A DNA stretch of 64,000 nucleotides from Halobacteriovoraceae bacterium (GCA_002711995.1 PASN01000019.1:1-64000); one strand, 5' to 3'. Positions 17,383 through 28,843 are shown, counted from the first letter of the stretch. The notes: generated by a model not told the origin, from the sequence alone. A program made the numbers and translations.

Positions 17383-17494
17383 TTTCTTGGCCTGAAGAGA
17401 TAATAAGTCATTGGTGATTAAATTATCCTTTGCTTTTAATTCCTTGCCTCAACACACACGCGGAAGAATTAAAAGTTATCCTGCATAACATATG

Positions 17495-17520
17495 AGCGCC
17501 TCGAACGAGGCGCTTTTTTT
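17495..17520 (+). terminator. Rho-independent terminator
   Basis: AGCGCCTC-GAAC-GAGGCGCT forms a perfect eight-base-pair stem followed by eight T. It ends plus-strand transcripts from nrdJ. The T-run touches the stop codon of the convergent symporter gene. Confidence 0.88.
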
Positions 17521-19124
17521 TATAAAGCGTAAGAAAAGGCCAAAATCGCAAGGCCCCAAGCGGCCAAAATTGCGTAATATTTTTTCCAGTTCACCTTAAA
17601 TATATCTTTTCCATGCTTTTTGAAATCTTCATATGTATAAGGTGCAATTCTCTTAGTGTCGGTTTCTTTGGCAAAACTAACCATATAGCCAAATCCAAAG
17701 CATATGATAAAGCCAATCATGTTCCACCAGGCCCAGCTTACTTGCGGGATATAGACCCAAAAGATAGCATTGACTATGAAACCTGCGACTAGTCCACTAA
17801 TTGCACCAAGTCCATTGGCCCTCTTAGTTAATATGCCAAGTAAAAAGACACCCAAGATTGGGCCATTTGCTAGTGAGCCAATCTTATTCATTGAAACGAT
17901 AATGGAGTCGGAAATATCACCTACGTTGAATGCGAAAACTGTGCAAACGGTGCCCCAAAAAACAGTGAGCGCCTTTGAGATGTAAAGTTCCTGCTTGTCG
18001 GTGAATTGCTTGTTTAAATAACTTTTAAAAACATCCTGCATAGTTGTTGCGCTCAAAGAATTTATTGTTGAGTCCAAAGATGACATGGCCGCGGAAAAAA
18101 GACCAACCATCACAAGGCCAACAGCGCCGACTGGAAAGTACTTAATTACAAACACAGGAACTGACAAGTTATAGTTCGGTTCACCATTCTCAAGTGGCAA
18201 CAGATTAATAAAGTCAGGATTTTTCGTGACGTATGCGCCAATACAAACACCAAGGAAGCAGTAGGTTAAAACTAGTGGAAAGCGCATCATTCCATTTATG
18301 AAAAGCGCCCAATTGGTATCATCCACACTCTTTGTGGAAAGCTCTCTTTGAACTTGAGATTGGTCGCAGCCGTAATAGGCTATATAAAGGAAGAAGCCCC
18401 CAATTAAGGAGGGAAGGAAAGTGAAGCTGTTGCCGTCAAAGCCAGCAGATGAGAAGTCCAAGGCCTTCATTCGCTCAGGGTCAAATGTGGCCAACGTTTC
18501 ACTAAAACCGCCCACTAGATCCATTGCGACAAAGACAGTGAAGATAATTGCACCATATAAAACAATCATCTGAATAACATCCGAGTAAATTACGGCCTTC
18601 ATACCACCAATAGAGTCATATACAATGGTGATTACGCCAAGAAGAACAACTGCCCAAGTAAAATTTATGCCAGTGCAGTAGGATATAACAATCGAGATTC
18701 CATAAACTGTGACACCGGTCCCAAATGCCCTTATAAACTGAAATAACAATGAAAGCACAAGTCTTGTGGTTTTATTGAACCGCTTTTCTAGATAAGCGTA
18801 TACAGAGATGATTCCAAGTCTTCTGTACAAAGGTAGTAGGAAGATCATTAGAAAGATCATTGCAAAAGGTACCGCAATTTCATACTGAAGCCACAAGAGT
18901 CCGCCACCAACAGAGAAAGCGACAAAGGCTGGGGCGCCTAGAATAGAATTTGTCGAGCACTGCGTTGCCATGGTAGAAATAGCTATTGGCCAAGCACCAG
19001 TGTTATTGCCACCAAGGTAATAATCCTTCTGATCTTTCTGACCACGCGCCAGAAAAACGCTTAGACCAATCATTCCTATGAGGTATAGGATGATGATAAC
19101 CCAATCTAGAGAGTGTAGTTGCAT
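17520..19124 (-). CDS. Sodium:solute symporter (SSS family)
   Basis: A 534-residue inner-membrane transporter with about 13-14 hydrophobic helices that would import a solute with Na+. Family features include the N-terminal LDWVIIILYLIGMIGLSVFLA helix region (two segments), the DYYLGGNNTGAWPIAISTMATQCS region, and GLVMVGLFSAAMSSLDSTINSLSA, the SSS signature around the sodium site. Substrate cannot be read from sequence. It diverges directly from glycerate kinase and a sugar phosphorylase, so a glyceroyl glucoside such as glucosylglycerate is an attractive substrate. TAAGGAAG precedes its ATG, and this site lies inside the opposite gene. Confidence 0.88.
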   Translation of the reverse strand: MQLHSLDWVIIILYLIGMIGLSVFLARGQKDQKDYYLGGNNTGAWPIAISTMATQCSTNSILGAPAFVAFSVGGGLLWLQYEIAVPFAMIFLMIFLLPLYRRLGIISVYAYLEKRFNKTTRLVLSLLFQFIRAFGTGVTVYGISIVISYCTGINFTWAVVLLGVITIVYDSIGGMKAVIYSDVIQMIVLYGAIIFTVFVAMDLVGGFSETLATFDPERMKALDFSSAGFDGNSFTFLPSLIGGFFLYIAYYGCDQSQVQRELSTKSVDDTNWALFINGMMRFPLVLTYCFLGVCIGAYVTKNPDFINLLPLENGEPNYNLSVPVFVIKYFPVGAVGLVMVGLFSAAMSSLDSTINSLSATTMQDVFKSYLNKQFTDKQELYISKALTVFWGTVCTVFAFNVGDISDSIIVSMNKIGSLANGPILGVFLLGILTKRANGLGAISGLVAGFIVNAIFWVYIPQVSWAWWNMIGFIICFGFGYMVSFAKETDTKRIAPYTYEDFKKHGKDIFKVNWKKYYAILAAWGLAILAFSYAL

Positions 19125-20279
19125 ATGAGTCTTCCTTATAAGGCCGAGACATTTATCGAGGAAATATTGAACCTCTTAAAACCGGCCGATGTTTTTAAAA
19201 ATATCTTTAAATTTTACCATAACCAAATTTTTATTGAAGGGAGTGTCATTGATGTCCCGCGACAAGTTCATCTATTTGGACTAGGCAAGGCGGCAAGTTT
19301 TGAGGTTGAAGCAATGAAAAACTTGATCAATGGCTCGAAACTTAAGAATAAGCTTGGCATGTGCGTTTCTTATACAAAAAGAGAGCATATCGTTGAGGAT
19401 GAAGAAATTGCTCAGCTTGAAGGTGATCATCCTGTGATTACCGAAGATAACATTGGTCAAACCAAAAAGTTTATCTCGATGCTTCAAAAAGCAAACAAAG
19501 ACGATGTTTTAATTTTTTTGCTATCGGGCGGGGGATCAGCTCTTTTAGAAATGCCTGTTGATGGCATGAGTTTTAAGCAGCTTCAGGCCAAACACCAAGA
19601 ACTTCTCAATAGTGGACTTAATATCAATCAAATGAACGCAGCCCGAAAGGCCATATCCAAAGTAAAAAATGGAGGTCTTTTAAACTTCATTCCCTGCGAC
19701 AATATTGTTCAGCTGGTTACATGTGACATACCTAATGAAGAAATCGCTGATGTGAGTTCTGGGCCACTAATAAATAAGGAAAGGGCTGATAAACGGGTTC
19801 AATCCGTCTTAACTCAATCGGCCGGAACTCTTTTAAAAAGACTCACCAGCGGTCATAAAAACGCCCGGATTGATGCAATATATGACTGCACTTTGGAAGA
19901 GATGTGCCAGAGCATGCTTGGGAGTCTTCCAACTAAAGAAGAAGTTGTCCTAAGCGGTGGAGAAGGAACATTAAAAGTTTTATCGGATGCTGGGCTTGGC
20001 GGAAGAAGCACACACTTTGTTTTGCATTTCGCTCATATGCTTTATAATGACCCGGATAATAGAGATATCAAAATTTTAAGTTTGGGAACTGACGGCACAG
20101 ACGGACCTACAGATGCTGCCGGAGCGTACATTGATTACGAATTGTATGATAGGGAAGAAGCTTTAGAGCACCTTCAAAAACAAGACTCATACAACTATTT
20201 CAAAAAGAAAGGCTCTCTGATTAAAACAGGACCAACGATGAACAACTTGATGGATGTAAGGATATTGTGGCGTGAATAA
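19125..20279 (+). CDS. Glycerate 2-kinase (GckA/MOFRL type)
   Basis: This enzyme phosphorylates D-glycerate to 2-phosphoglycerate with ATP, feeding lower glycolysis. The 384-residue chain has the DUF4147/MOFRL hallmarks: HLFGLGKAA, EGDHPVITEDN, FLLSGGGSALLEMP, MNAARKAISKVKNGGLL, SGPLINKERAD and, in the C-terminal domain, LGTDGTDGPTDAAGAYID. The ATG is placed at 19125; a TTG at 19119 is less likely. Its start codon abuts the start codon of the divergent symporter (CATATG) with no base between. Only a weak GAGAG lies upstream. The last 8 bases overlap the phosphorylase gene, so kinase and phosphorylase are coupled. Confidence 0.92.
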   Translation: MSLPYKAETFIEEILNLLKPADVFKNIFKFYHNQIFIEGSVIDVPRQVHLFGLGKAASFEVEAMKNLINGSKLKNKLGMCVSYTKREHIVEDEEIAQLEGDHPVITEDNIGQTKKFISMLQKANKDDVLIFLLSGGGSALLEMPVDGMSFKQLQAKHQELLNSGLNINQMNAARKAISKVKNGGLLNFIPCDNIVQLVTCDIPNEEIADVSSGPLINKERADKRVQSVLTQSAGTLLKRLTSGHKNARIDAIYDCTLEEMCQSMLGSLPTKEEVVLSGGEGTLKVLSDAGLGGRSTHFVLHFAHMLYNDPDNRDIKILSLGTDGTDGPTDAAGAYIDYELYDREEALEHLQKQDSYNYFKKKGSLIKTGPTMNNLMDVRILWRE

Positions 20280-21891
20280 AATAAAAGAGCTTTTAGAGAC
20301 ATTGAACCCTCAAATGGAAGAGCTCATTCCATTTATAAATGAAAATATTCAAAAACTAAAAAGCAATATAAGTGAATCTGGGTCCCTTTATTCAACTGAC
20401 CAAGTTGTTCTCATCACATACCCTGATCAGTTCCAGTCGGAAGACAGAAGCTATCTACAAAACCTCGACAAGTTTTTAGAGAATGAAATGGAAGGGGAGT
20501 TTTCTCATGTTCATATTCTGCCATTCTATCCTTGGACAAGCGACGATGGCTTTTCACCAATTAATTATCATGAAGTGTGCAAAGAATATGGAGAGTGGAG
20601 CGATGTAAAATCTCTTAACCCCGGTAAAATGGTGGATTGCGTCTTTAATCATCTCTCCTCCAAAAGTCCCTTGTTCTTAAAAGCGCTGGATGGGGATAAG
20701 AAGTATATGGACATGTTTCATTTCTTTGATGATGAAACTTATAAGGACAAAAGCTTTCAAGAGAATATTTCAAAAGTTGTAAGGCCAAGAACCTCTCCTC
20801 TCCTTACACCTTTCAAAGTCGGTGAAAAGACAATGCATGTTTGGACTACCTTCGGTCCTGACCAAGTGGACACCAATATATCTAACAAGGATATGGTTAA
20901 ATATCTTTTGGAGTGCTTCTTTCTGTACATAGAAAAAGGTGCAGAGTTCTTTAGGGTGGATGCGGTTCCCTTTATGTGGAAGGAACTAGGCACTGATTGC
21001 TCTCACCACGAGAAAACCCACGCTTTTGTAAAGCTTATGAGGGCCATAGCTCAAGAAATTAATCCAAAACTTTTAATCATTACAGAAAGCAATGTTCCTC
21101 ACCAGGAGAACATTACCTATTGGGGAAATGGCAGCGATGAGGCCCATGTTGTTTACAACTTTTCTTTTGCTCCTTTGCTTTTACACGGTATGACCTTTGG
21201 GAACAACCAACTGCTAAATCAGTGGGCAAAAGACGTATTTAAGATACCAGATGAATGCGCATTTCTGAACTTTACATCCACACATGATGGCATAGGCCTT
21301 CGTGGATTAGAGGGCATAGCCAGTGAGGACGATGTCCTTGCTATGTGCTCCCACGCCAAAGAGCGAGGTGGAAAAATTGGAATGAAGACCGGCGCCAATG
21401 GAGAGCAAAAACCTTATGAGTTAAATATCACATGGTCCAGCTATCTAGAGGATAAGGAGCTTAAGGAGGACGAACTAGTTCGAAAAATTGCGAATTCTCA
21501 CGCTCTGGCCATGTTTCTGCCTGGAATAGGCGCTCATTATGTTCATAACTTTTTTGGAACAAAAAACTGGCAAGAAGGATATGAAAAATCTGGAATACCA
21601 AGACGTCTTAATCGTAAAAAGTTCTCATACCCTTTGGACCTTTCAGGCCATGAAACCTCTGTTATGAAAAGAATGCTTGATCTCATCAGGAAAAAGAAAT
21701 CTTTCGAACAGTTCCATCCAAAGGCGAGTTTTGAGGTGGTGGAGCTAAATCCTGGTGTTTTTTCTTTTCTGAGAGGGGAGAGTCCAGTTTTAGTTGCCTT
21801 TAATCTTGAAAATAAAAAGAATGAGATTGAGTGTAAGGGCAAGAGCTTTGAACTTGCCCCATACGAGCTTTTGATACAAGAGCTGTCTTAA
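20272..21891 (+). CDS. GH13_18 sugar phosphorylase, probably glucosylglycerate phosphorylase
   Basis: A retaining alpha-glucoside phosphorylase of the sucrose phosphorylase subfamily (GH13_18). The nucleophile is Asp230 in FFRVDAVPF, the acid/base is Glu272 in ITESNVPH, and the transition-state Asp339 lies in STHDGIGLRGLEG. The THDGIGLR-x-LEG loop resembles the YcjM-type branch (glucosylglycerate phosphorylase) rather than classical sucrose phosphorylases; this comparison is from memory. The partner glycerate kinase makes glucosylglycerate the best substrate guess: glucosylglycerate + Pi gives glucose-1-phosphate + D-glycerate. Sucrose or glucosylglycerol remain alternatives. It starts at a GTG inside the kinase gene, with AAGGA just upstream. 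No signal peptide, so cytoplasmic. Confidence 0.85.
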   Translation: MNKIKELLETLNPQMEELIPFINENIQKLKSNISESGSLYSTDQVVLITYPDQFQSEDRSYLQNLDKFLENEMEGEFSHVHILPFYPWTSDDGFSPINYHEVCKEYGEWSDVKSLNPGKMVDCVFNHLSSKSPLFLKALDGDKKYMDMFHFFDDETYKDKSFQENISKVVRPRTSPLLTPFKVGEKTMHVWTTFGPDQVDTNISNKDMVKYLLECFFLYIEKGAEFFRVDAVPFMWKELGTDCSHHEKTHAFVKLMRAIAQEINPKLLIITESNVPHQENITYWGNGSDEAHVVYNFSFAPLLLHGMTFGNNQLLNQWAKDVFKIPDECAFLNFTSTHDGIGLRGLEGIASEDDVLAMCSHAKERGGKIGMKTGANGEQKPYELNITWSSYLEDKELKEDELVRKIANSHALAMFLPGIGAHYVHNFFGTKNWQEGYEKSGIPRRLNRKKFSYPLDLSGHETSVMKRMLDLIRKKKSFEQFHPKASFEVVELNPGVFSFLRGESPVLVAFNLENKKNEIECKGKSFELAPYELLIQELS

Positions 21892-22937
21892 GCGGCCTCT
21901 AATTTTTGAGTTTCATGCTCAGGGCCTTTCCCTTTTAGAAGAAGCCCATAGACTTGTAGAAAACCCTCGTAGTTTATCTTGTGATAAAAATGACTTTCAT
22001 CTATTTCACTCATGATGTCTTTGTGAAGTTTGTGAAGCTCAAGGCCTGGCACAAAAGGAACGATGTGGTGGAGGCCGTGGTAGGTCTGTCCAACGGGCGC
22101 AATAAGCTTTGCGAACACACCTTTATTCTTAATATTAACAGAGTCCATTATGTGTTGCTCAAAAGTCATCTTTTCACCTTGACCCCAGTAAAGATGGGTG
22201 GCGCTTAGGAATCTAAAAGTGTTAAGCGTTAAAATGGCTACCATCGCGACGGCCCATTGATAAACCAGATCAATGGCAAGGTTATTTGAGGTGATCAGTC
22301 CAATTATTGACCAAACATAGATGAATGTCGCCATCTCTTCGATAACCCAATACTTCCTTTCTGTTTTATTTTTAAGCTTCTCCCTAGTGAAGACAAATCT
22401 AATGCCCATGCATGAGGCCTTTTGCTCAATCAAATTTCTTATTTTACCACCTACAAAGAAAGTTAAGGGCAATATCGCAAACCGGTACAGGCTCAAGAAA
22501 GGTAATGCCAAGTTTTTAAAATAGTAGGTATGCATGGAGAAAGCTTTTCCAAAAAATGGAAAATACTCTATGTCTTTATCGGTGTTGTATTTATTTTTAG
22601 AGTGGTGGGCGAGGTGAAGCTCTCTATACATAAAGTGGGGCGCCAGAAGAGGGATTCCGCACAATACACTCCATGCAAGTCTAAAGCCTGGAACCTGTCC
22701 TTTTTTTATATGAACAACCTCATGGGTAAAGGTAGCCAGTCTGTATAGGGCAAAAATTGAAGGCACTAGATAAATAGCTCTTTGCACGAGTCCATCTGAA
22801 AGATAGGCCGCTATAAAAAGACCCCAAGCAAGCACTGCGGTCGCCAACAAGTTCAACCAGTATGTGGCCTTTGGATACTTGTTGTATTTCTGTGCCAATC
22901 TAAAAATTAACTTAACCTGTTCATCAAAGTTTTTCAT
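21888..22937 (-). CDS. Fatty acid desaturase family protein
   Basis: A di-iron membrane desaturase or hydroxylase acting on acyl chains. Three histidine boxes are present: HEVVH, HLAHH and, near the C-terminus, GLHHIVP. Several hydrophobic segments lie between them. The start is placed at the ATG at 22937, because AAAGGGGAA lies just before it; an upstream in-frame ATG at 22952 overlaps that site. The product has 349 residues. The stop overlaps the convergent phosphorylase stop by four bases (TTAA). The exact substrate and double-bond position cannot be inferred. Confidence 0.85.
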   Translation of the reverse strand: MKNFDEQVKLIFRLAQKYNKYPKATYWLNLLATAVLAWGLFIAAYLSDGLVQRAIYLVPSIFALYRLATFTHEVVHIKKGQVPGFRLAWSVLCGIPLLAPHFMYRELHLAHHSKNKYNTDKDIEYFPFFGKAFSMHTYYFKNLALPFLSLYRFAILPLTFFVGGKIRNLIEQKASCMGIRFVFTREKLKNKTERKYWVIEEMATFIYVWSIIGLITSNNLAIDLVYQWAVAMVAILTLNTFRFLSATHLYWGQGEKMTFEQHIMDSVNIKNKGVFAKLIAPVGQTYHGLHHIVPFVPGLELHKLHKDIMSEIDESHFYHKINYEGFLQVYGLLLKGKGPEHETQKLEAA

Positions 22938-22992
22938 GGATTCCCCTTTCATGTCTTTTCGGTTTGAAAATGAAAAAATGAATAAACCTAGG

Positions 22993-23481
22993 CTAGTTCT
23001 TTAATTTTTGACTCAACGTTTTCTTAGAGTGGGAACGTGCTTTGGCGTTCTCAAACCTTCTCTTTTCATCAGAGCTCTCCGGTTTAAGCCTTGGGACTTC
23101 TCTAGGTCTTCCTGCCTCGTCTATGGCCACAAAGGTAACATATGCTTTTGTTGTTTTTTTCTTATCACCCGTGTAAGGGTTTTCACTATCGACCCTTACA
23201 CCGACTATCATAGAGCTGGTGCCCACATAGTTTACACTTGCCTTAATGCTTACGTGGTAGCCCACATTTATAGGGGAGATGAAGTCTATGTCTGAAATAT
23301 GGGCCGTAACAACTGGGTTGTTGCAGTGTCTCTCAGCTGCCATCGCTGCGGCGATATCTATCCAAGACATAATCTTTCCACCAAAGATGGTTCCGTGTTT
23401 GTTGGTGTCGGTTGGCATAACCATTTCACGCATTTCAACAGCGCTTTCAGCAGGTGTTTTTGTTTTCAAATTATTCTCCAT
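22993..23481 (-). CDS. Acyl-CoA thioesterase (hotdog fold, YciA/BACH type)
   Basis: This family hydrolyses acyl-CoA to free fatty acid and CoA. Hallmarks are MREMVMPTDTNKHGTIFGGKIMSWIDIAAA (read in two segments), with Asn and the HGTIFGG turn, then AHISDIDFISPINVG and the conserved strand TTKAYVTFVAIDEAGRPREVP. The frame is open well upstream, but the ATG at 23481 fits the family start and leaves 162 residues. The start overlaps the end of the giant lipoprotein gene by 11 bases and lacks a strong Shine-Dalgarno, so coupling is likely. The basic C-terminal tail is typical of the family. Confidence 0.88.
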   Translation of the reverse strand: MENNLKTKTPAESAVEMREMVMPTDTNKHGTIFGGKIMSWIDIAAAMAAERHCNNPVVTAHISDIDFISPINVGYHVSIKASVNYVGTSSMIVGVRVDSENPYTGDKKKTTKAYVTFVAIDEAGRPREVPRLKPESSDEKRRFENAKARSHSKKTLSQKLKN

Positions 23482-26400
23482 CGCAATAAACGTGGTGGTT
23501 CCATCTAAAGCCTTCGCTGAACACATTGTATCCAACATTTGCATTGTTGCTTGTGCCACTGTCGTATATTGAATCCACAAGGCTGTTCACCTTGGCGGGC
23601 TGAGAGTCCTCAGGCTCAAGGTTGGCGTATGGTTCTCCGTCAAATGGTCCAAATGCTCCGCCTCTTCTAACTTTGCCGCTAGCGCATAGCTCCTCGCCAA
23701 TTGCTCTTAGCTTTGAAATTACAGATGAGCTTGTCTTCGGCTCACCCGTGGCCGGGTCAAAGTCGTCTACATCAAGCGGTTGAGCAGTTGATAGGTACTG
23801 GTCATCTAGGCCTTCACCACTTACAAATTTATTAAAGTAAACATTTAAGTTCGTTCCACTTGGCAAGGCGCATTTTCTAGAGTCATTTTCTCCTTCCACA
23901 GCGGCGCCACTGCAGCAAATAGAAGCGCTTTCGCTTGAGTCAATAGGAGAGCCTAGAGGCAGACAACATTTAAACTCGTTGTCCGAGAATATCGGTTCGT
24001 GCGCGAGTAGTTTTTGGTCCGCCACTTTTTTCAGATCTGTTGAAGGATCCCAGTGAGCGTACGGATCATAGGCGGCACCAGGGGAGCCCTGCACGCTCCA
24101 ATATGTGTCTGCGTCAGGGTCTACAAATGTCTCAGGGTTGTTGATGAAATCGGAAACCGTCTCTATGGCGTCACTGAAAATTCCTGGCACGACTTTTTGG
24201 TAGATGTCATTGCAAAAGACTGGCTCATAGGTCATCTGTGGAATGCCAATGTATTCGAGCTTAGCAAGCTTTTCCAAATAATATAGGGCATCACCTGGGC
24301 GCGAGCTTCTTCTGTGAGGAAGATAGTTAGGGTCATCTATGGCCGCGGTGCCAGGCACCTTAGTCTGCTCCCATAGAAGCGTCCCAGGAGCTATGAAATC
24401 CAAGTATAGAGAGTGAGACTTATGTCCATAAAATTCGTATTCAGTTGCTGGACCGCCGTCAACAGTGTCGTCAATAATTCCTTGAGAATAAGCGACCTTT
24501 AGAATTCTGGTGCTTGGGTCATACATGTAGCAACACTGATCAGCTTCGCTGCATGCAGTGCTAGGGCTCCAGCTTACATTGTCCACAGAGTCCCCGCAAA
24601 GGCCATTCCAACCTTGAGGTGTGGCGTTGCAGTCATAACTTGAAGGAGTCAGCCTTCGACATGATCCTCCTGGATGCAAGGTTTGGCCGCCTTGGTCTTT
24701 ATATGGGTTTTCAAGATCTATTCTTACTTCGCTTATATCACTAAATGAAATAAAAGAAGGTATTCTTGTGTGGATGTAACGTTTAGCATCCCTGTTTTCA
24801 ATTAAAGCAGGAAGATCAGTATTCCACTCAAAAAATGGAGCGTCTTCTTGAGAGTCATATGGAAGCAGCTGCATGAATGCCCATGGATTAGCTCTCCAAA
24901 GGTCTCTATCATTCATTTGCTCTGGATCAGTGTCAATAGTCATTTTAAACGTGGTGTAGTCAAGTGCAGGAGGAGCTGCGCTTGAAAGGGTGTCAATTGA
25001 TCCTAGAGAGGACTGGGCACAGCCAGCGGCGCTTAGACCTGAGTCCACACAGAAGTTTTCACGATCTTTGCTTAGATCGCTGCTTGTCAGATTGTAGGCG
25101 GCCGGATCTTCGGTCAACATTAAAGGTGTTTGATAGTTAATGCACTTAAAGTTTGAGACATCAAGACTCAACCTTTTCTTGCTCCAATCATTGGTTCCAT
25201 CTGAGAACTTTCTCACCCAGTTGCCTCCACAACATGTTCTTGCACCGGCGTCATGAATGTTTTTCCACTGGTTCTTATTTAGTATTGTTGGATCTCCAGG
25301 ATTCAACGTTGGATCGTTTGGACGCTTGGCACTCACTCTTGCATTGGAAACCGAGGCCTCCAAGGTTGTGTCGTCAACCATTGGAAGGGAAGCGGCATAT
25401 CTCGAGTAACGGTTAGGGTTGTTAGGCTGTAGACCGCCATAAATGTCCGATCTTAAATCTTGAGACTCTGGGGATAGAGGAGAGTCTTCCGTGTACATGG
25501 TGATGTCTTTGCCAATTTCTCTACAACATCTATTGTTTGCCATAGTGTAAGAGTTAAAGGCGTCCAGCTCCTCAGGTGAGGAGTCTGCGGTAAGCACAGG
25601 CTCTCTACTCTCTTGTGAGCACACAAGGTATTCTTCCCAGTATTTTCTTTCAGCGATGTTTCCAAAGACATCCCCGCCTAGGATATCAATTAACTCGTAA
25701 TGTTTATAGTTTGGAGAACAGTCATAGTTTGTGTGACAGACTGATCCGGCCCTTCTGAAACATGCGTTTTGAGCTAGAGTAGGCTGCGTTTGAACATCGC
25801 TTGAAGCGAGTGTTCTTGCTTCAATTTGTTTAAATGCCGAGTACTCTCTAATCTGTTCTTCAGTTAAGAAGCTTAGATCGCCAGCGGCAGTGTCCACGGC
25901 CTCCATTCCACACATGTTTTGTTGAATAGAGTAGTACTCCGTAGCATCTTGCTTATCGAAAGTTCCACTTATGAAAGTGTCGCTAATCTGAACCTGGTCA
26001 TTGATAAATGAATCTTTTAGGTGCAAATAGTTGCCATCGCTATCCAGTATTGGACACGAGCTGTACTTTAAGCTTGTATAAAGAGTGGCGTTGCAGCCGC
26101 CAATTTGCGAAATAAAATCTGTTCTGCTCTGTGTGTCCTTGGACTTATGCTGTTCCAGTGGATCGAAGTTGGATGTGTTCGCTCCGGCAAGTGTGGGCAC
26201 CGACTTGGCAGGCCTACAAAGGCCGTGGGTGTTGGCCCCAAGGTTTGATATTAAAGACACATTTTCATGTATGGCGGTTCTCACCTCATTGGGAAGTGCT
26301 GAGCCGCCACTGGTAACCACATAATCTTTAGGTCTTCCGAGTACGTTGGCGTCTTTTCCAAAAATATGGTTCTTCACGTCTTGTTGGTTTTCAAGAGGAG

Positions 26401-28843
26401 CTGCGTATCGGGCATCTTCTTTGTTAAAGTCTGCAGACGTTAGGTTTGCGCAGTAGAAGTTTGGAGCGCACGCCAAGGCCTTTCTTTTGTTTTCATTGAC
26501 TGTTGTTAGGTCAACCGCGCATGGAGCGCCTGCTCCTCGATAGACACATCTTTTAGAGCTTGTTCCCGGTGGCAGTTCTCCTTGTTGAAGAAACTGCGCC
26601 AAAGCGCCAACTCTTTCATCGGAAGCGAGTTCTTTTGCTCCATCTGGATCAAATGCAGGCCATTTGGTTTTGTATTGATAAACATCCACACAAGAGTATT
26701 CCCAGCCTAGTGTGCTGATACAATGGGCGTCTGTTTCACATTCGTGATACTTCTGGCAAAGTCCGCCATCGTTTTGGAAGGGACTGTTTATTTCAACTTC
26801 AGGGTTGTAGTCGTATTGCGCAGCAGTTGTCATGAAGTCATACTCTTGAACACTTACCAAGTGGTCCGTAGGGGAAGCGAGGTCGGCAAAAGGCGCGTTG
26901 ATGGCAAAGTAAAGCTTGTCGCTTGTGGATTTTACTTTTCTACCTTTGCCAATCGCAAACCAGGTTACACCATCGAATGAGCCAATCAAGGCCCCTTTGT
27001 TAAATCCAAACCAGTCTCTTTGATAGCCGTTGGTGTACATGGCCGCTTGAGCGCTTAGTCTATTTAGTCTTTGCTGTTGCTGTGAAGAGTTTGGATTGTG
27101 GGCGTAAGGAAGCATTGTTGGCGGCACCCAGCAAGCTCTACCAAAGATGGTGTCTTCATAGTTTCCACCAGGTGAGTTTGTTCCCCAAGTATCTCGAGAT
27201 GTGGTAAAACCTCTGGCCCTAAGTCCTAAACCATCTTGCGTGCTAGGGAAAGGGGAGAAGTTTGTGAACCAGCTGTCGTTTCCACATTCAGGACATGCAG
27301 TGTAGTAACCGTCCAATGCCGCAATATAGTAAGTTTTATCAAAATCAAGCTCCACTACCTTTGCAGGCCTTGCTTGGTCCAGACTCACGGTCATTTGGCC
27401 AAGTATGGAGTTCATATTAAAGCTTCCATTGAGTGGAAAGAGCTTTGAGTTATCCAAGTACTGGAAAGGTTCTCCCTCTTGTGTGGTGGAGGATTGAGTT
27501 GAGCTGTAAGGATCAACCTCCTCATTTGAAGCGCTGAAAAATCTATGTGGAGCGCTTCGCGAGCTCACCATAACTTCCAAGTCTTGAAATGGAAGATCAT
27601 TGTCGTGGTTTGGAGGAGTCACACAGGCAACGCTGGAAATTTCTGTTTGAGTATCATCCTCATAAACAAGTTTGTAGGTGTATGCTGGGCAGTTTTTGAC
27701 CATCAGGGACAAGTCGTCTTTTTCTGCGCAGCCACAGTTGCTGTATAACCTTTTAAGTACTGATTCGTAGTACATGTCATCAGTGGTGGTTGAGGTCTCA
27801 CACTTGGAATACGTTTCAGAAGAGTTGTAAGGAGCTGAGTGAAATGGATTCTCCACTGATTTCTCTTTCATCTCTTCAACACATTCATAGTCTGCGATCA
27901 TTGCAAGTCTTCTTGCCTCTGCGTCTGCTTCTGGATCTGTTGGATCTTCGTCGTCTCCACCTCCACCATTTTGTGGATCTTCTAGGCAACTAAAATAGTA
28001 TTGAGGATATTTAAGATACCAGTTCGGATTTGTGGCCTTTTCGCTTTCTGCGTTGCTAAAGCCTTGCGGGTCGGCGTCGACTCCTGACTGCTTTACAGTC
28101 GCTTCCTTTACACACTGTCCTTGAATGCAACAGTCAAAGCCATCAGCCTTGCATCCGGCATCAGAGCAGGTTCCTATGGAGCCTGGCGTGTTTCCATTCA
28201 TATCTATGCTGATGTTTAGATCCTGATAGTTCACTTCGGCAGTGTCCAGCAATTCCAAGTAGGAGCTGGTGTTTATTTTGTAGATTTTAAGCTCATTGGT
28301 GTTAATTACACCTAAGCAGTCTGCGCAGACATCGGTGGTGTTAAACGCCACAGAGCTATTTAACGGTGCATTCGAAATGGTGAGTGGCGAGTCGTTGAGA
28401 AGAATATCTTTGTTGCAAATTTCGTTTCCGGAGGATGCGGAAAGTTGAATTCTAAAATACCTTGTTCTCTTTCCGGTGCTGTAGTCAGTAGTGATAGCGG
28501 GAGTCGCTTTTGCGATTAACGGTTTGGATGGGGTGGAGCCCGTTAGGAAGTTCGCGTGCAAGCAATATTGAGAGGTAAAGTTCTCCTCCAATTGCAGAAA
28601 CGAATCTACGGAAGAGCCAAAGATGTAATGGTTTTTTAGGTTGTCATAATTTACCTGAAGCGTGGCAACTTGATTTCCACTGTCTAGCCAGTAAAGCGGT
28701 TTAGAATCCGCTGGCTGGTCGATAACATTTGAATTGGGATCATTGCCTGTAACATCCACACTGTCTTCCAACACGCGAGGGGCCTGTTCGGGCAAGCACG
28801 AGGAAAGCAAGGTCGTTAATGTAATTAAAATTAGAAACTTCAT
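23471..28843 (-). CDS. Giant Cys-rich lipoprotein of unknown function
   Basis: I do not recognise this 1790-residue protein, the largest in the window. It has a lipoprotein signal (TTLLSSC, lipid Cys about 16), so it should be anchored in the outer membrane or at the cell surface. Dozens of Cys residues occur in clusters, for example GTCSDAGCKADGFDCCIQGQC, KCCLP, SICCSG and RTCCGGNW, suggesting many disulfides. An acidic linker (GGGDDEDPTDPEADAEAR) separates the N-terminal third. No transmembrane helix is seen after the signal. The codon use looks ordinary for the window. Size, lipid anchor and disulfides suggest a surface-exposed or adhesive role, which is inference. Confidence 0.8.
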   Translation of the reverse strand: MKFLILITLTTLLSSCLPEQAPRVLEDSVDVTGNDPNSNVIDQPADSKPLYWLDSGNQVATLQVNYDNLKNHYIFGSSVDSFLQLEENFTSQYCLHANFLTGSTPSKPLIAKATPAITTDYSTGKRTRYFRIQLSASSGNEICNKDILLNDSPLTISNAPLNSSVAFNTTDVCADCLGVINTNELKIYKINTSSYLELLDTAEVNYQDLNISIDMNGNTPGSIGTCSDAGCKADGFDCCIQGQCVKEATVKQSGVDADPQGFSNAESEKATNPNWYLKYPQYYFSCLEDPQNGGGGDDEDPTDPEADAEARRLAMIADYECVEEMKEKSVENPFHSAPYNSSETYSKCETSTTTDDMYYESVLKRLYSNCGCAEKDDLSLMVKNCPAYTYKLVYEDDTQTEISSVACVTPPNHDNDLPFQDLEVMVSSRSAPHRFFSASNEEVDPYSSTQSSTTQEGEPFQYLDNSKLFPLNGSFNMNSILGQMTVSLDQARPAKVVELDFDKTYYIAALDGYYTACPECGNDSWFTNFSPFPSTQDGLGLRARGFTTSRDTWGTNSPGGNYEDTIFGRACWVPPTMLPYAHNPNSSQQQQRLNRLSAQAAMYTNGYQRDWFGFNKGALIGSFDGVTWFAIGKGRKVKSTSDKLYFAINAPFADLASPTDHLVSVQEYDFMTTAAQYDYNPEVEINSPFQNDGGLCQKYHECETDAHCISTLGWEYSCVDVYQYKTKWPAFDPDGAKELASDERVGALAQFLQQGELPPGTSSKRCVYRGAGAPCAVDLTTVNENKRKALACAPNFYCANLTSADFNKEDARYAAPLENQQDVKNHIFGKDANVLGRPKDYVVTSGGSALPNEVRTAIHENVSLISNLGANTHGLCRPAKSVPTLAGANTSNFDPLEQHKSKDTQSRTDFISQIGGCNATLYTSLKYSSCPILDSDGNYLHLKDSFINDQVQISDTFISGTFDKQDATEYYSIQQNMCGMEAVDTAAGDLSFLTEEQIREYSAFKQIEARTLASSDVQTQPTLAQNACFRRAGSVCHTNYDCSPNYKHYELIDILGGDVFGNIAERKYWEEYLVCSQESREPVLTADSSPEELDAFNSYTMANNRCCREIGKDITMYTEDSPLSPESQDLRSDIYGGLQPNNPNRYSRYAASLPMVDDTTLEASVSNARVSAKRPNDPTLNPGDPTILNKNQWKNIHDAGARTCCGGNWVRKFSDGTNDWSKKRLSLDVSNFKCINYQTPLMLTEDPAAYNLTSSDLSKDRENFCVDSGLSAAGCAQSSLGSIDTLSSAAPPALDYTTFKMTIDTDPEQMNDRDLWRANPWAFMQLLPYDSQEDAPFFEWNTDLPALIENRDAKRYIHTRIPSFISFSDISEVRIDLENPYKDQGGQTLHPGGSCRRLTPSSYDCNATPQGWNGLCGDSVDNVSWSPSTACSEADQCCYMYDPSTRILKVAYSQGIIDDTVDGGPATEYEFYGHKSHSLYLDFIAPGTLLWEQTKVPGTAAIDDPNYLPHRRSSRPGDALYYLEKLAKLEYIGIPQMTYEPVFCNDIYQKVVPGIFSDAIETVSDFINNPETFVDPDADTYWSVQGSPGAAYDPYAHWDPSTDLKKVADQKLLAHEPIFSDNEFKCCLPLGSPIDSSESASICCSGAAVEGENDSRKCALPSGTNLNVYFNKFVSGEGLDDQYLSTAQPLDVDDFDPATGEPKTSSSVISKLRAIGEELCASGKVRRGGAFGPFDGEPYANLEPEDSQPAKVNSLVDSIYDSGTSNNANVGYNVFSEGFRWNHHVYCDGE

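Follow-up and report, generated by a model that had tools for sequence, protein, structure and literature searches.

Glucosylglycerate phosphorylase (GGaP; EC 2.4.1.352) is described from E. coli (YcjM), Allomeiothermus silvanus and Spirochaeta thermophila, and putative GGaPs are carried by many organisms that are not thought to make glucosylglycerate, with a role in vivo that is unconfirmed (PMC7178133). Here we analysed a locus from a Halobacteriovoraceae bacterium (GCA_002711995.1, PASN01000019.1:1-64000; this whole stretch of 64,000 nucleotides is called the window below) in which the gene of a sodium:solute symporter diverges from those of a class II glycerate 2-kinase and a GH13_18 phosphorylase. 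A previous reading of the DNA without database searches (the sequence-only reading) had placed these three genes, with their families and with the symporter pointing away from the pair, and we found three long open reading frames at exactly these positions with Pfam matches to SSF, DUF4147/MOFRL and Alpha-amylase. We consider it probable that the three genes form a self-contained unit for the uptake and burning of 2-O-alpha-D-glucosylglycerate. The kind of enzyme is known; the cassette of importer, kinase and phosphorylase and the symporter clade that goes with it seem not to have been reported before. The open-licence literature searched yielded no account of such a cassette, the nearest being that of a putative transporter next to the glucosylglycerate genes in Prochlorococcus (PMC11631117).

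Under the proposed scheme, the symporter would bring in glucosylglycerate together with Na+, and the phosphorylase would use phosphate to convert it to alpha-glucose 1-phosphate and D-glycerate in a double-displacement retaining reaction, with Asp230 as the nucleophile and Glu272 as the acid/base. The kinase, assigned to its family by the MOFRL domain, would then turn glycerate into 2-phosphoglycerate for lower glycolysis, while glucose 1-phosphate may enter metabolism through a phosphoglucomutase-family enzyme, for which two candidate genes are present in the genome.

Family and acceptor site of the phosphorylase

Annotation alone would mislead at this locus because the structure matches and the NCBIfam name both point to sucrose phosphorylase. 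The protein matches Pfam Alpha-amylase (6.4e-15), is closest among solved structures to GH13_18 sucrose phosphorylases (7qqj, 2e-39), and has sucrose phosphorylase as its best NCBIfam name, far below the cut-off (161 vs 334 bits). It is also 38% identical over 501 aa to YcjM, the characterised E. coli GGaP. In a tree of 93 sequences, the 87 GGaP-type sequences, including those of the window and YcjM, split with a support of 100 from the six references for sucrose, sucrose-6-phosphate and glucosylglycerol phosphorylases (SP, SPP and GGoP), and a careful tree of 42 sequences gave the same split (100/100). The GGaP-type sequences were fetched by patterns from an alignment that includes the window, which biases the sampling to the GGaP side; the split from the references is independent of this bias. 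YcjM serves as the characterised anchor of both trees, the A. silvanus, S. thermophila and Corallococcus sequences not being included.

Furthermore, alignment mapping shows that the catalytic set D230, E272 and D339 is identical to the corresponding positions of B. adolescentis SP, and that the glucose subsite (-1) matches this enzyme at every position checked (D91, F94, H127, Q198, R228, H338 and R444). The changes relative to B. adolescentis SP are in the acceptor site (H234 to N274, Q345 to E383 and Y196 to F234) and are those of GGaP. Asn274 is aligned with the YcjM motif TETN, at the position of A. silvanus Asn275, where SP, SPP and GGoP have His; Glu383, within KPYE, falls on the position of A. 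silvanus Glu383, where the other clades have Gln. In GGaP, this Asn and the Glu of loop A are reported to bind glycerate, and mutation of either reportedly cripples the A. silvanus enzyme (mutagenesis cited in PMC7178133). Loop A of the window (ANGEQKPYEL) fits none of the SP, SPP and GGoP motifs N(L/V)D(I/L/V)YQ, GFDVHQ, KXXYYQ and VGAIYQ. On the tree and the motifs, we reject a sucrose or glucosylglycerol phosphorylase. The sequence-only reading had itself named clustering with such phosphorylases as the outcome that would speak against it, and we found the protein among the YcjM-type GGaPs instead; its proposal of a glucosylglycerate phosphorylase thus gains support from the tree position and from the two predicted glycerate-site residues. 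The loop THDGIGLR-x-LEG, which it had offered as the signature, is not diagnostic, since THDGIG is common to sucrose phosphorylases too; the diagnostic motifs are TESN (271-274) and KPYE (380-383).

A number of observations weigh against the assignment. The subclade of the window is divergent, with a long branch in addition to the modest identity to YcjM, and an approximately unbiased (AU) test comparing the Bdellovibrionota group as sister to all other GGaPs with the same group nested among them gave p 0.32 and did not separate the two placements. The beta-5 motif reads TESN where (T/S)ETN has been published, with three of the four letters matching, both functional ones included; the third letter is Ser throughout the Bacteriovoracaceae subclade, whose orthologues read TESN or TDSN. 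In loop A, the residue before PYE is Lys or Arg in the subclade and mostly Ser in other GGaPs. An uncharacterised orphan clade of GH13_18 in Corallococcus combines GEXRPYE with AETD (PMC7178133), and the window differs from it in having TESN with GEQKPYE. On the transport side, sequence comparison with solved structures places the symporter closest to SMCT1, a sodium-coupled monocarboxylate transporter.

TESN and Lys380 are real departures and are the main reason for caution on the exact substrate. Marking as they do a subclade on a long branch, and with a loop A resembling that of the orphan Corallococcus clade, they may reflect a changed acceptor, such that the substrate would be the glucoside of a related hydroxy acid contacted by Lys380. 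We regard such a change as unlikely, given that Asn274 and Glu383 are retained in every member examined, that the adjoining kinase family acts on glycerate, and that the same symporter clade accompanies canonical TETN phosphorylases in two cases (L070 and G023).

Other variants were seen among the relatives. A phosphorylase from UBA3535 (L015) adjoins the same symporter clade and has the acceptor site AEAN and ALYE, keeping only the glycerate-site Asn and Glu. An Atribacterota phosphorylase (L059) has TQTN, with the acid/base Glu replaced by Gln, and is expected to be crippled or to use an altered mechanism. Two or three GGaP-type genes were seen in each of several genomes (G154, G165, G203, G239 and others), a multiplicity that suggests a division of labour or different substrates.

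Linkage of symporter, kinase and phosphorylase

The kinase has both domains of the class II family, DUF4147 (5.5e-44; 150.8 bits vs cut-off 23) and MOFRL (1.1e-26; 93.6 vs 28.3), and matches the Thermotoga maritima glycerate kinase 2b8n at 8e-39. It is short (384 aa) and falls far under the NCBIfam equivalog cut-offs (161 vs 550 bits). The lysine of GK(A) and the arginine of GGR, which we take to be essential in the T. maritima kinase, are conserved in the alignment. This is the only MOFRL kinase gene in the genome, and all class II kinases characterised up to 2007 convert D-glycerate to 2-phosphoglycerate (PMC2063504).

Five genera (the window, L105, L108, L109 and L110) share both the order of the symporter, kinase and phosphorylase genes and their divergent arrangement, with all other neighbours differing. 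Across 129 genomes of the family, a full-length phosphorylase is present in eight, and a symporter orthologue (E < 1e-80) is present in exactly the same eight and in none of the 121 others (Fisher 7e-13, a test that, like the following one, ignores the shared ancestry of the genomes). A MOFRL kinase accompanies all eight phosphorylases and is found in 20 of the 121 other genomes (Fisher 2e-6); none of these 20 genomes with the kinase and without the phosphorylase has the symporter orthologue. It is thus the phosphorylase, not the kinase, whose distribution the symporter tracks, and this speaks against an importer of glycerate.

This pattern bears on a scheme in which the symporter would take up a small carboxylate such as glycerate for the kinase to burn, and the phosphorylase would work in the synthetic direction, joining glucose 1-phosphate and glycerate into glucosylglycerate for use as an osmolyte. 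Besides the co-occurrence, the high phosphate of the cell counts against it, as phosphate normally pushes a phosphorylase toward breakdown. The kinship of the symporter with SMCT1 would suit such a scheme, as would the reversibility of phosphorolysis (PMC7178133, PMC11009771); overall, we judge it distinctly unlikely.

In other phyla, namely in Virgibacillus, Pseudalkalibacillus, Halobacillus and a flavobacterium, the same enzyme is accompanied by a kinase of the GarK type and an SSF symporter. As kinases of class I (GarK-type) and class II (MOFRL) are of separate origin (PMC2063504), two families without kinship to each other support glycerate as the product. Another seven relatives of the phosphorylase lie near a gene for a synthase resembling GpgS (glucosyl-3-phosphoglycerate synthase), the classical glucosylglycerate context. 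Collectively, the gene linkage, the co-occurrence and the swap of non-homologous kinases in other phyla support a unit of importer, phosphorylase and kinase, as the sequence-only reading had proposed for scavenging. That an ordinary sucrose phosphorylase lies by chance beside unrelated genes, as its sub-threshold NCBIfam name might suggest, is contradicted by the tree, the motifs, the linkage repeated in five genera and across phyla, and the perfect co-occurrence; we give this explanation very little credence.

The symporter covers the whole Pfam SSF profile (positions 1-406 of 406; 2e-45, 155.8 bits) and matches TIGR00813 at 6.5e-68. In a tree of 36 sequences that includes paralogues from the same genomes and characterised SSF proteins, the phosphorylase-adjacent symporters of Bdellovibrionota and a flavobacterium form one group (100/100). 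Its only member that does not adjoin a phosphorylase comes from G023, a genome in which the symporter co-occurs unlinked with a phosphorylase of another lineage located elsewhere. The Halobacillus, Virgibacillus and Pseudalkalibacillus symporters form a separate nearby group, with the order of branches unresolved. An arginine in TM3 (Arg132) is present in all 12 phosphorylase-associated symporters and in none of the 24 others, in a column picked post hoc with the groups already known. In the alignment, Arg135 of SiaT, which we take to bind the sialate carboxylate, falls one helical turn away from this residue, a location that would fit an anionic substrate. The Ser-Ser of TM8 and the Asp of the DVIQ stretch, presumably sodium-site positions in SiaT, are kept in the symporter, and a sodium site is suggested by this alignment. 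The symporter is a new candidate for a glucosylglycerate importer.

In one of the cassettes (G086, on L110), the reading frame of the symporter is broken and the phosphorylase has Asp in place of the acid/base Glu (TDSN), which looks like joint decay or an assembly error.

Layout of the locus and source of the solute

Table 1. Features of the locus, in window coordinates.
Feature	Position	Strand	Basis and comment
Hairpin and T-run 3' of the ribonucleotide reductase gene	17492..17520	+	Window/G001 alignment; left boundary of the block that G001 lacks
Sodium:solute symporter (SSF), 534 aa	17520..19124	-	Pfam SSF, TIGR00813, orthologue co-occurrence, clade; proposed glucosylglycerate/Na+ symporter
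CATATG palindrome, abutting symporter and kinase start codons, zero gap	19122..19127		Sequence
Class II glycerate 2-kinase (DUF4147 + MOFRL), ATG start	19125..20279	+	Pfam; match to 2b8n
GH13_18 phosphorylase, 539 aa, GTG start	20272..21891	+	Tree, motifs, YcjM identity; proposed 2-O-alpha-glucosylglycerate phosphorylase
TESN motif, residues 271-274 (acid/base Glu272, glycerate-site Asn274)	21082..21093	+	Signature from PMC7178133
Loop A KPYE, residues 380-383 (Lys380 subclade-specific, Tyr382, glycerate-site Glu383)	21409..21420	+	Signature from PMC7178133
Fatty acid desaturase, convergent with the phosphorylase	21888..22952	-	Pfam FA_desaturase 3e-20

The stop codon of the kinase (20277-20279) lies beyond the GTG of the phosphorylase at 20272, an overlap of 8 nt that is consistent with the translational coupling proposed from the sequence alone. 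At the other end of the kinase gene, its ATG (19125, +) and that of the symporter (19124, -) stand head to head within CATATG, and because of these abutting ATGs we place the kinase start at 19125 and not at the mechanical TTG at 19119. The same junction is found in L105, L108, L109 and L110, that is, in five genera including the window; in L010, it is the symporter and the phosphorylase that overlap in this manner. As the two start codons touch, the promoter and the ribosome site of each gene would have to lie inside the other, and purine-rich stretches of the ribosome-site type flank CATATG, each inside the opposite gene. Transcription of the symporter and of the kinase in their divergent directions is possibly coupled or mutually exclusive.

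A GpgS orthologue was found neither in the genome of the window (G000) nor in its cassette-bearing relatives, no match in any of them exceeding 34 bits, GpgS-independent routes not having been searched; the same query finds a counterpart in another phylum at 314 bits. Since no GpgS orthologue was found, a supply of glucosylglycerate from outside is likelier than a home-made osmolyte, which fits the scavenging role put forward earlier. The family includes a metagenome-assembled genome of Halobacteriovorax that carries the cassette (L009, identical in sequence to G101), and prey cells would for this reason be a plausible source.

Alternatively, glucosylglycerate may be imported mainly as an osmoprotectant, with the enzymes draining the pool when salt stress ends, so that the locus would serve osmoadaptation and not feeding. 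Glucosylglycerate is indeed a compatible solute, and a regulatory role of GGaP in lowering the pool has been suggested (PMC7178133), but a kinase feeding lower glycolysis and the patchy, cassette-like spread (8/129) fit nutrition at least as well, and we think this use rather unlikely to be the main one.

G001, a genome of the same genus, has the flanking ribonucleotide reductase and thioesterase/lipoprotein genes side by side, and 43 nt stand at the site of the 5.5 kb found in the window. The alignment stops at 17520, at the terminator of the ribonucleotide reductase gene, and resumes near 23020 with clean edges; the block in between (17521 to about 23019, with its G001 counterpart at about 8265-8310 of L179) holds the symporter, kinase, phosphorylase and desaturase genes. 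A third genome, G002, ends differently and does not settle whether the block was gained or lost. We saw no sign of a recent foreign origin in the base composition of the block, whose GC and third-position GC match the host. The desaturase, while in the same presence/absence block, is absent beside the cassette in L105-L110 and is probably not part of the module. Further along the window, 23471-28843 encodes a Cys-rich, lipoprotein-like protein of 1790 residues with no Pfam match, 78% conserved in G001.

As its gene goes together with those of an importer and a glycerate kinase, and as no synthase orthologue was found, the GGaP of this group would be a scavenging enzyme, a concrete and testable answer for one of the groups that carry GGaP and are not thought to make its substrate. 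The locus also provides a candidate importer for a solute that has none known in the open-licence literature searched, and may link the metabolism of predatory bacteria to the osmolytes of their food. More broadly, we see about an even chance that the phosphorylase-associated symporters of Bdellovibrionota, Flavobacteriaceae and Bacillota have a specificity so far unrecognised, being dedicated to glucosylglycerate/Na+ symport with Arg132 as their mark, and that together with two interchangeable types of kinase they make up a mobile catabolic cassette with which predatory bacteria, like other heterotrophs, could take a common marine osmolyte out of other cells.

Comparison with described systems

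The kinase of the window has the same two domains as the class II kinases of T. maritima and Thermoproteus tenax, and differs in being short. The closest solved relatives of the symporter are the SSF symporters SMCT1, NIS, SMVT and SiaT, which belong to a different clade and lack Arg132.

Breakdown genes beside a putative transporter, with uptake from other cells proposed, are reported for the glucosylglycerate operon of Prochlorococcus (PMC11631117); that operon differs from the window in occurring in organisms that also synthesise glucosylglycerate. The Prochlorococcus transporter GlcH (Pro1404) was considered as a possible SSF relative adjoining a GGaP and dropped, being described as the product of a MelB-type gene.

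The ycj operon of E. coli likewise has a glucosylglycerate phosphorylase (ycjM) adjoining a transporter (the ABC transporter ycjNOP), yet the transporter is of another class, no glycerate kinase is present, and the operon holds extra glucoside dehydrogenases and a kojibiose phosphorylase. Known GGaPs are accompanied by this ABC transporter or by GpgS/GpgP, whereas the partner in the window is a sodium symporter. The enzyme itself differs from them in TESN versus (T/S)ETN, in the Lys380 of loop A and in belonging to a divergent subclade, and shares with them the GH13_18 subfamily, the glucose subsite, the glycerate-site Asn and the loop-A Glu. An association of GGaP with glycerate kinase genes has been reported in the literature for the family, and the window shows it likewise.

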